Shown piece by piece: positions 39,593-53,727 of a DNA stretch of 64,000 bases. A program made the position numbers and the translations under genes. This DNA comes from Olsenella timonensis (GTDB taxonomy: Bacteria > Actinomycetota > Coriobacteriia > Coriobacteriales > Atopobiaceae): assembly GCF_900119915.1 (NCBI RefSeq), contig NZ_LT635455.1:1054001-1118000 (forward strand). Direction: 5' to 3'. Numbering within the stretch: position 1 is the first letter of the stretch; each line of letters begins with the position of its first letter. The notes below the pieces were generated by a model. It was given only the letters and a program-made list of their open reading frames with translations. It was not told the origin of the DNA and ran no database searches.

Positions 39593-39729
39593 GATGCCCC
39601 CCTCTCGTGTGCCTGACGTTCCCATTCTAGCAGTGTTTCTCGCGCGCCCGTTCGCGCGGAGGCCGTCTTTGCCGTACCATGGGTGGTCGACTGAGACGTC
39701 CGCGCACGAGCGCGAGGAACGGAGGCACC

Positions 39730-40779
39730 ATGCCCAACGAGGGTAGCTACGAGGCCGCCAAGCGGCGCAGCGACGAGGTACACGCCGACCTCGCCACCAA
39801 CCCCGGCAACTACACGATGCTCACCGGCGACCGTCCCACCGGACGGCTCCACCTGGGGCACTACTTCGGCACGCTCGTCGACCGCGTGCGCCTGCAGGAC
39901 ATGGGCGTGCGCACCAACATCATCATCGCCGACTACCAGGTCATCACCGACCGCGACACGACCGAGCACATCCGTGACAACGTGTACAACATGGTGGTCG
40001 ACTACCTCGCCTGCGGGATCGACCCCGACAGGACCATGATCTTCACGCACTCCGCGGTCCCCGAGCTCAACCAGCTCATGCTGCCGTTCCTGTCGCTCGT
40101 GACCGAGGCCGAGATGGAGCGTAACCCGACGGTCAAGGCCGAGCAGGAGGCGAGCGGGCACGCCCTCACGGGGCTTCTGCTCACCTACCCCGTCCATCAG
40201 GCCTGCGACATCCTCTTCTGCAAGGGGAACATCGTGCCCGTGGGACGCGACCAGCTCCCCCACATCGAGATCACCGACAAGATCGCGCGGCGCTTCAACG
40301 AGCGCTACGGACGCGTCTTCCCCGAGCCCGTGGGACTGCTCACCTCGACGCCGCTGCTCCCGGGACTCGACGGGCGCAAGATGAGCAAGTCCTACGGCAA
40401 CGCGATCTCCATCTCGATGACCGCCGAGGAGACCGCGCGCCTGATCAAGAAGTCCAAGAGTGACTCCGAGCGCATGATCACCTTCGACCCCGAGAACCGT
40501 CCGGAGATCTCCGGCCTGCTCACCACCGCCGGCATCTGCACCGGGCGCGAGCCGGCCGAGATCGCGGAGGAGATCGGCATGGGCGGGGCGGGCCAGCTCA
40601 AGCGCTACGTCACCGAGGCCGTGAACGGCTACTTCGAGCCCATCCGCGCGCGCCGCGAGGAGATCGCCCGAGACATGGAGTACGTCGCCGACGTGCTTGC
40701 CGAGGGCAACCGTCGCGCCCGTGAGATCGCCGCGGCGACCCTCGACGAGGTCCGCGAGGCCATGGGGATGGTCTACTAG
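39730..40779 (+). CDS. trpS: Tryptophanyl-tRNA synthetase
   Basis: Class Ic synthetase of 349 aa. The HIGH motif is HLGH (residues 41-44, in PTGRLHLGHYFG) and KMSKS is at 217-221, followed by SYGNAI. QEASGHALTGLLLTYPVHQACDIL contains the tryptophan pocket. GGAGG lies 5 bases before the ATG. The 137-base upstream spacer, shared with fthC, shows no T-box leader. Confidence 0.96.
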   Translation: MPNEGSYEAAKRRSDEVHADLATNPGNYTMLTGDRPTGRLHLGHYFGTLVDRVRLQDMGVRTNIIIADYQVITDRDTTEHIRDNVYNMVVDYLACGIDPDRTMIFTHSAVPELNQLMLPFLSLVTEAEMERNPTVKAEQEASGHALTGLLLTYPVHQACDILFCKGNIVPVGRDQLPHIEITDKIARRFNERYGRVFPEPVGLLTSTPLLPGLDGRKMSKSYGNAISISMTAEETARLIKKSKSDSERMITFDPENRPEISGLLTTAGICTGREPAEIAEEIGMGGAGQLKRYVTEAVNGYFEPIRARREEIARDMEYVADVLAEGNRRAREIAAATLDEVREAMGMVY

Positions 40780-41130
40780 CTGTTGAATGTCGGTAGGTTG
40801 TTTACGCCGACGGCGCGCGCCTGCCGGCGCCCCGGGCGGTCGTCCTTCTCGGCCAGGCCCCGATTAACATACAGAATCCGGGTTTGTCCGAAAACTTCCC
40901 TGCGGATATACGATACTTAACCGGATTCTGCATGATAATGCGAGGGTTATAGGACAAACCGCTTATATACCGCTTTGGATACGCCGCGGAGCTGAGGAGG
41001 CTGCGTTGTGCCTCTCCTGATTCTGCTGGCTGGAGCGCACTCGCAGGCGAGGGGGCGACGCCCGGGAGGCGGCACGGGACCTATCCAGAGCGGTTAAAAG
41101 CGCTTGCGTGCCAAACAGAGCTCCACACGA
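40780..41130. other. Gene-free 351 bases with interlocking inverted repeats
   Basis: I find no credible gene here on either strand. It holds CAGAATCCGG (40872-40881) complementary to CCGGATTCTG (40921-40930), and GGTTTGTCC (40881-40889) complementary to GGACAAACC (40952-40960). The order of arms is a-b-a'-b', a pseudoknot-like topology. CCGCTTTGGATA (40970-40981) pairs, with one mismatch, with TATCCAGAGCGG (41082-41093). A structured RNA or a decayed mobile element are both possible. Confidence 0.5.
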
Positions 41131-41168
41131 CAAAACCCCAGGCCGCACTGAGCTGACCTGGGGTTTTG
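41131..41168. terminator. Bidirectional terminator between trpS and OTC genes
   Basis: Perfect 12-bp stem CAAAACCCCAGG / CCTGGGGTTTTG with a 14-base loop. The AAAA/TTTT at the stem base gives a T-run on both strands. It lies 31 bases after the OTC stop on the minus strand. Confidence 0.8.
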
Positions 41169-41199
41169 ACACGTCCGAAGGACCCAAACTCGAGAAGGG

Positions 41200-42198
41200 C
41201 TACCGCAGCGTCGCGAGCATCACGGCCTTTATCGAGTGAAGGCGGTTCTCGGCCTCGTCGAAGACCCGGCTGCGCGGCCCCTCGAAGACCTCGTCGGTCA
41301 CCTCGAGCTCGGGCAGGCCGAACTTCTGGAAGACCTCCTCGCCGATCGTGGTCTTGCGGTCATGGAAGCTCGGCAGGCAGTGCATGAAGATCGCGTCGGG
41401 CGCCGCCTTGGCCATGAGCTTGGCGTTGACCTGGTACGGTGAGAGCAGGCGGATGCGCTCGCCCCAGAGGTCGGAGGACTCGCCCATGGAGACCCAGATG
41501 TCGGTGTAGATGACGCTCGCGCCGGCGGCGCCCTCGTCGACGCTCTCGGTCAGCGTGATCGTGGCGCCCGTCTCGGCGGCGACGGCGCGGCACTGCTCCA
41601 CGAGCGCGGCGTCCGGCATCTGCTCGGCGGGGCCGCAGGCGTAGAAGTCGATTCCCAGCTTGGCGCAGACCACCATGAGCGAGTTGCCGACGTTGTTGCC
41701 CGCGTCGCCCATGAAGGTCACCTTGCGGCCGCGCATGCCGCCCCGCCCGAACTCCTCCTCCATCGTGAGGACGTCGGCGATCATCTGCGTGGGATGGAAC
41801 TCGGTCGTGAGGCCGTTCCACACGGGGACGCCCGCGTATGCGGCGAGCTCCTCGACGCGCTCCTGGCCGTAGCCGCGGTACTCGATGCCGTCGAACATGC
41901 GCCCGAGCACGCGCGCCGTGTCGGCGATGGACTCCTTCTTGCCGATCTGGCTCGCGCTCGGGTCGAGGTAGACCGCGTGCATGCCGAGGTCGGCGGCGCC
42001 CACCTCGAAGGCGCACCGCGTCCGCGTCGAGGTCTTCTCGAAGATGAGGGCGACGTTCTTCCCCTCGAGATAGCGATGCTGCTCGCCCGCGCGCTTCTTC
42101 GCCTTGAGGTCGGCGGAGAGGTCGAGCAGGTAGCGTATCTCCTCGGGCGTGAAGTCGAGGAGCTTGAGGAAGTTTCGTCCGGTGAGGCTCACGGCCAT
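41200..42198 (-). CDS. arcB: Ornithine carbamoyltransferase (probably catabolic)
   Basis: Transfers carbamoyl between carbamoyl phosphate/ornithine and citrulline (332 aa). The carbamoyl-phosphate site is EKTSTRTR (Ser57-Thr-Arg-Thr-Arg61), and the ornithine loop is [10 protein letters not shown]. Placement just after arginine deiminase, with no arginine-synthesis genes nearby, argues for the catabolic form that phosphorolyses citrulline. Carbamate kinase is not in this window. AAAGGAG precedes the ATG. Confidence 0.93.
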
Positions 42199-53395: not shown

Positions 53396-53727
53396 GGAGA
53401 GCCCCTGGGAGATCAGCTACCTCGGAACGGGCCCGTCGCAAACCCCGGCGGCGGTCGCCCGCTTGTCGAGGCTTCGACGCTCGCGCGTGCCGCGCGGCCG
53501 CGGCCGCCGTGCCGCCTATGACGCGACAGGGCTCCCCTCTTCGCCGAGTGTACGAAACCATCGACCGCAACTACGCCCGTCAGTGATTAAGGGACATGTT
53601 CACCCTGTTAAGAAGTGAACGTATGAGCATACGGTCATGCCTATCGCGCGAGTTTCGTACACTCGGCAAACGGAACGGCCGCACTCCGGGGTATTGGTTC
53701 ACTTTGCGGGCGCGTGACCGGTACAGA
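53396..53727. other. Gene-free stretch containing a 125-base inverted-repeat element
   Basis: I see no credible gene between the pta-unit terminator and the pckA terminator. The notable content is a pair of perfect 16-base inverted arms (53543-53558 and 53652-53667) with smaller hairpins between them; see the separate repeat entry. The flanking sequence is GC-rich without clear signals. Confidence 0.6.
53543..53667. repeat. 125-base element with 16-bp perfect terminal inverted repeats
   Basis: Arms GCCGAGTGTACGAAAC (53543-53558) and its exact complement (53652-53667) enclose 93 bases. Inside are GTTCAC-N11-GTGAAC (53598-53620) and CGTATG-AG-CATACG (53620-53633). As RNA it could fold into a long stem with one or two internal hairpins; as DNA it resembles a small non-autonomous element. 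No target-site duplication is evident. Confidence 0.7.

Follow-up and report, generated by a model that had tools for sequence, protein, structure and literature searches.

REP/RAYT systems consist of dispersed intergenic palindromes and one cognate gene, which has palindromes on either side, mostly in inverted orientation. A genome contains several such families, and every family has a gene of its own. The REP hairpin spans 20–40 bp and carries a GTAG or CGTC tag at its foot, and the cognate gene encodes an HUH Y1 transposase (PF01797). These pairs of REP or REPIN sequences with RAYT (TnpA-REP) genes, also named 'REPtrons', are the subject of PMC2817692, PMC3733652, PMC3116915 and PMC8266576.

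In a 64,000-nucleotide window of the Olsenella timonensis genome, the gap between two convergent genes holds a palindrome, element A, that recurs at other intergenic sites. We read this, with a probability of roughly 0.6, as an arrangement like that of REP/RAYT, where dispersed palindromes accompany a cognate gene; a Vsr-like nuclease would stand in place of the Y1 transposase and would mobilise the palindromes. The gap itself is made of two unrelated mobile-element relics followed by a bidirectional terminator, and is not one structured RNA. The upstream gene is taken to be trpS, after the earlier sequence-only reading of this DNA and its family resemblance, and the downstream one is presumably argF-like, judging from its sequence. 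The features are the following.

39679–40779, plus strand: trpS ORF on the upstream side, facing argF convergently; the two genes are syntenic in 27 related genomes
40861–40941, plus strand: element A, one solo of the dispersed palindromic repeat, 81 bp long; scores 88.7 bits against model R1
40863–40881, plus strand: left arm of element A; covariation across 43 copies
40899–40910, plus strand: conserved loop motif of element A, CCTGCGGATATA
40921–40939, plus strand: right arm of element A; covariation across 43 copies
40957–41105, no strand: element B, candidate internally deleted IS1595-like relic; end-to-end alignment of inverted repeats 40957–40981 / 41082–41105
40995–41082, plus strand: 3'-end remnant of an IS1595-like transposase gene, inside element B; 78–79% identity to coding copies in two relatives
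41131–41168, no strand: bidirectional terminator between the convergent trpS and argF
41200–42198, minus strand: argF-like ORF, downstream neighbour
53543–53667, no strand: solo member of the palindrome family found on the flanks of paralog L071; arms 53543–53558 / 53652–53667

The raised AT content that the sequence-only reading had noticed at 40860–40980 is borne out, with 43% G+C in 40861–40941 and 47% in 40942–40956 against 69% for the whole window. So is its clean terminator downstream, a perfect 12-bp inverted repeat with a 14-nt loop and a T run on each strand. Of the two origins it had offered, a decayed mobile element proved the better guess: element A is a dispersed palindromic repeat, and element B appears to be a deleted IS1595-like end. 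The long-range pairing it had reported is also real (40969–40988 / 41075–41094), and forms the inner portion of the inverted repeats at the two ends of element B. The interior of B resembles a transposase gene of two relatives (G018 and G030), at the 3' end of that gene. The transposase of a relative matches PF12762 (DDE_Tnp_IS1595) at 16.8 bits, for a cut-off of 27, and the IS1595 zinc-ribbon model, also below cut-off. Element B appears to share inverted repeats and a transposase C-terminal remnant with IS1595-family insertion sequences, and differs from them in being internally deleted and lacking an open transposase gene. By sequence resemblance, it fits the decayed, deleted end of an IS1595-like element; a target duplication, looked for by eye, was not found.

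Element A is an imperfect palindrome with 19-nt arms that are 89% complementary. As to a possible MITE of a DDE transposon, marked by short terminal repeats with target-site duplications, element A is palindromic from end to end. Its stem scores 13, as compared to a maximum of 10 among 30 shuffles. The sequence-only reading had described two interleaved arm pairs here, allowing a pseudoknot or alternative hairpins. The first is the inner part of the arms of A and stands above chance; the structured-RNA reading of the region is not supported. The second exists (40881–40895 / 40946–40960, with a core of 9 bp) and is best read as chance: among 300 shuffles of the region at 40780–41130 (351 nt), 21 contain at least one 9-mer pair of this kind, and in the other 14 solo copies of A the complementarity at this place never exceeds 7 nt. 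This pair joins the loop of A to the edge of the unrelated element B. Since its size is seen in shuffles and it is missing from the other solos, the interleaved structure is rejected.

A DNA search of the genome with element A returned 14 places. The covariance model R1, built from 11 copies, returned 21, both strands merged, and discounting four that lie inside an exact inverted contig-end duplicate leaves 17 distinct copies, which bears out the dispersed repeat for which a search of the same genome had been suggested. Fifteen of them are solos and two flank a gene. All 15 solos are intergenic, with convergent neighbour genes in six cases, tandem ones in eight and divergent ones in one, according to gene calls made by a simple codon score. 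At their boundaries, no target-site duplication or precise excision was evident, and no common sequence was evident outside the arms. Reading by eye directly outside the arms gave no common tetranucleotide of the GTAG/CGTC type. The window copy is probably passive, lodged between convergent genes beside the insertion-sequence relic.

Two side observations concern these copies. The contig end at 2128679–2176737 (outside the window; L004 and L064) is an exact inverted duplicate of about 2080620–2128678, the coordinates of paired matches adding up to 4257357. It closes in a string that we take to be Tn5/Nextera-like, and it is probably an assembly artefact; the A-type gene of this genome, described below, sits within it. 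In addition, the motif CTTCTCG/CGAGAAG is enriched within 150 bp of the solo hairpins (n=15), with 27 occurrences in 4.5 kb, one at 40845 beside the window copy, against a background of 10 in 7.5 kb of intergenic DNA of the window. A target preference, an outer stem or another repeat are candidate explanations.

Pairs of hairpins about 1.3 kb apart enclose a single ORF of about 375 aa, the A-type gene. Hairpin matches (E≤0.1) were found in 29 of the 60 relatives searched, 27 of which belong to the same genus (31 genomes), and 26 of the 31 possess the gene (E≤1e-20). The named relatives with the gene belong mostly to Olsenella and Thermophilibacter, family Atopobiaceae. Thirty gene loci were examined, drawn from the places listed in the gene search of the 31 genus genomes. 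The model hairpin stands on both sides of the gene at 18 of them, and on one side at one more that is cut by a contig end (L088). The upstream and downstream flanks match each other at E<1e-5 at 21 of the 30 loci, as compared to one among 51 window genes taken as controls. At the 18 two-sided loci, the hairpins lie on opposite strands in 12 cases and on the same strand in six; one upstream hairpin (L081) is more than 400 bp away and was detected by the model only. Seven orthologues with 41–47% identity (L091–L097) showed no matching flanking repeats at E<1e-5. The gene of this genome (L005, 1606–2792, minus strand) is frameshifted, residues 1–267 and 262–373 being in different frames. The A-type family may thus be inactive here, unless the frameshift is a sequencing error.

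The number of hairpins follows the gene. The median is 24 matches per genome in the 15 genomes whose gene has 55% identity or more, and 2.5 in the other 16 (Mann–Whitney p 1e-5; counts include reverse-strand matches and are uncorrected for relatedness). There are exceptions: one genome (G014) has 16 hairpin matches and no gene at E≤1e-20, and two others (G006 and G007) have hairpins without a gene.

Each gene has hairpins of its own. Mean hairpin identity is 83% within a gene and 66% between genes, and none of 10,000 random pairings was as good. The closest hairpin is the partner at the same gene for 22 of 36; for the remainder, a hairpin of another gene is closer or equally close. Across 18 genes, protein identity and hairpin identity diverge together (Mantel r 0.77; 0 of 5,000 permutations as high). 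In four genomes that each contain two A-type genes, the hairpins of the two genes differ; the hairpin thus goes with the gene rather than with the genome.

The arms also covary. We aligned 43 hairpins, namely 36 gene-flanking ones and 7 of the 15 solos of this genome. Two-sided changes occur in 15 of the 19 arm pairs, and 89% of cells pair as compared to 30–40% in slid controls, in an alignment that includes related rows and whose shuffle counts are not probabilities. The within-genome alignment of 11 copies contained no compensatory pairs, so that covariation becomes visible only once hairpins of diverged genes are included. Hence, the covariation that had been set as a check on the sequence-only reading is present, across dispersed, gene-flanking copies and not across orthologues of one locus. 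While the arms vary, the loop motif CCTGCGGATATA is largely kept. In some subfamilies (hairpins of L101, L083, L098 and L077), the 5' half holds a nested second inverted repeat, e.g. GAAATAACACGC ... GCGTGTTATTTC, with which two alternative hairpins are possible.

The arrangement extends to related genes. This genome contains seven diverged relatives of the A-type gene, four of which are flanked by matching repeats, with a sequence of their own that differs from A; the flank comparison for the other three (L065, L068 and L070) gave no matching repeats. Two paralog palindromes were searched and both are dispersed in this genome: that of L071 recurs at several other sites, that of L069 at about nine. 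ACCTGC lies in mid-loop in four of six hairpins of other paralogs here, for about 0.2 expected with a motif picked after seeing it. A profile of all relatives (A2) finds the gene family in 188 of 296 Coriobacteriia genomes and in 62 of the 125 genera sampled; per-genome paralog counts with this profile are lower bounds, at least about seven at the maximum. Searches with the A-type protein gave no match in phages and one weak match, from Collinsella, in plasmids.

The sites turn over between species. We read the trpS–argF junction in 27 genomes, and the A-type hairpin occurs in one of them, this genome, contrary to the conservation that a structured RNA at this place had led the earlier reading to look for. 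Most other junctions hold different palindromes, and in 20 of the 23 shorter junctions the best stem exceeds all 30 shuffles (it does not in G021, G009 and G017). A paralogous gene sits at the junction in four genomes (G001, G002, G007 and G020; E 1e-32 to 1e-36), and long inverted repeats lie across it in three of the four. At another site, 2 of 30 genomes contain an R1-type hairpin, several junctions measure just 20–48 bp, and ACCTGC also occurs in loops of other families. The junctions of both sites (L103–L129 and L248–L277) contain many unrelated long palindromes, several of them common to multiple species.

The A-type protein matches no Pfam or NCBIfam family, including a Pfam search with two full-length proteins up to E=1, and PADLOC and PDB-by-sequence searches returned nothing. 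An AlphaFold model from 39 homologues is confident, with a mean pLDDT of 89.7 and a pTM of 0.88. Foldseek gave no significant match in the PDB, Vsr being first at E 1.0. With VIA, residues about 146–324 of the model superpose on Vsr (1cw0, Z 9.2 over 118 residues, 2.8 Å); a mitoribosomal protein comes next to it (Z 9.0), and the C-terminal part also resembles TnsA (Z 5.7) and the R2 endonuclease (Z 4.8). Residues 1–182 resemble the AbiEi antitoxin 6y8q (Z 7.2 over 117 residues) and Rv2827c (Z 4.0). The model therefore suggests an AbiEi-like N-terminus followed by a Vsr-like, PD-(D/E)XK-type C-terminus. D235, N246 and Y247 are invariant in the 39 homologues, and D248 and H252 are kept in at least 90% of them. 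The nuclease-like motif is PD...(E/N)YDG..H, in which the A-type subfamily has FNYDG instead of VEYDG. Judged by this motif, where the usual E is N, catalysis is uncertain in the A-type subfamily. Two paralogs match REase_MTES_1575 below cut-off, and one of them also DUF559.

Element A would then be a solo, non-autonomous copy, whose full-length form would be the unit of about 1.3 kb, a gene with a palindrome on each side. The AbiEi-like N-terminal part of the protein probably recognises the cognate palindrome, presumably by reading its arms. At the hairpin, in extruded or single-stranded form, the Vsr-like C-terminal domain probably makes a nick or a cut in the DNA. Copying or transfer to other intergenic sites would follow, of the palindrome alone or together with the gene, and repair or replication would place the new hairpin copy. 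We give even odds to the wider proposal that this AbiEi-like/Vsr-like protein spreads its own hairpins, in many diverged families per genome across Coriobacteriia, and that every protein recognises the arms of its own hairpin around a common ACCTGC-type loop motif; this class of mobile element would correspond in function to REP/RAYT, with an enzyme unrelated to it.

The strongest rival to this mobile reading, which we regard as possible and rather unlikely, is that the protein binds the palindromes without moving them, as sites for regulation, chromosome organisation or defence that recombination or another enzyme has spread. The resemblance of the N-terminal part to an AbiEi antitoxin and the replacement of E by N in the nuclease motif agree with pure binding, and co-divergence of hairpin and protein needs recognition alone. 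On the other hand, the scarcity of solos between divergent genes (1 of 15) and the six between convergent ones are unlike operators, the long arms around a loop of about 40 nt do not resemble a dimer site, copies that are mostly inverted enclose the gene, and sites change from species to species. That a Y1 (RAYT-type) transposase, encoded at another place, moves the hairpins as REP-like elements and that the nuclease-like gene is a passenger is improbable. The repeats do look REP-like, and Y1_Tnp genes are found in 28 of the 31 genus genomes, including two of RAYT size in this one (1175497–1175826 and 1730085–1730417). However, G005 has 33 hairpin matches without a Y1_Tnp match, and no A-type hairpin lies next to either Y1 gene of this genome, which makes such a mover unlikely; in addition, the hairpin sequence tracks the nuclease-like protein.

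A structured RNA, with a pseudoknot or alternative hairpins and ending at the terminator, was the other origin offered by the sequence-only reading, and is now very improbable. The compensatory changes in the arms agree with it, as does the fold of the 106-nt stretch containing element A, which only 1 of 200 shuffles equals (z −3.3) and which betters the other 199. Against it, Rfam at gathering threshold gave no match except a tRNA elsewhere, a permissive Rfam scan of 40600–41300 gave two sub-threshold lncRNA models and nothing else, and a scan of the region found no sigma-70-like promoter; moreover, the hairpin is confined to 1 of the 27 junctions, the second arm pair is not shared, and the 3' half is the insertion-sequence relic. 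It is hardly credible that these are ordinary intergenic hairpins acting as terminators and repeated by chance or convergence. Six of the 15 solos do lie between convergent genes, but the common 81-bp sequence with its conserved loop motif contradicts this explanation, a separate terminator stands downstream of A, and hairpin pairs are gene-specific.

A keyword search of the literature, in a scope that left aside bioRxiv and most subscription journals, returned no description of a hairpin/nuclease system, and the A-type gene subfamily is so far unnamed by Pfam and NCBIfam. If the nuclease spreads the hairpins, bacterial repeats would have a new means of movement. Much of the fast-changing intergenic DNA of Coriobacteriia, which are common gut bacteria, would be accounted for in this way, and the many natural protein/arm pairs that vary together would offer a testable code of protein–hairpin recognition.

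The predicted C-terminal fold is shared with Vsr and related PD-(D/E)XK nucleases (DUF559, REase_MTES_1575, TnsA and the R2 endonuclease). The A-type protein differs from these in being fused to an AbiEi-like N-terminal part, and its gene stands alone between hairpins, with no methylase, transposase partner or reverse transcriptase beside it in the unit. Its first 182 residues are in turn like the AbiEi antitoxins of the type IV AbiE toxin–antitoxin systems. Unlike in AbiE, there is no room for an AbiEii partner, since one gene fills the unit between the A-type hairpins, and a nuclease-like domain follows the AbiEi-like part. With REP/RAYT, the A-type system shares dispersed palindromes, mostly inverted around the gene, and several families each with its own gene. 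It differs in its hairpin, of about 81 bp with arms of about 20 nt, a conserved loop motif and no evident GTAG tag, and in its cognate gene, which is not an HUH Y1 transposase and has a Vsr-like predicted fold. Overall, the layout is that of REP/RAYT, and membership fails on the enzyme. If the mobile reading is true, intergenic palindromes in bacteria are paired with, and spread by, no fewer than two unrelated types of enzyme.
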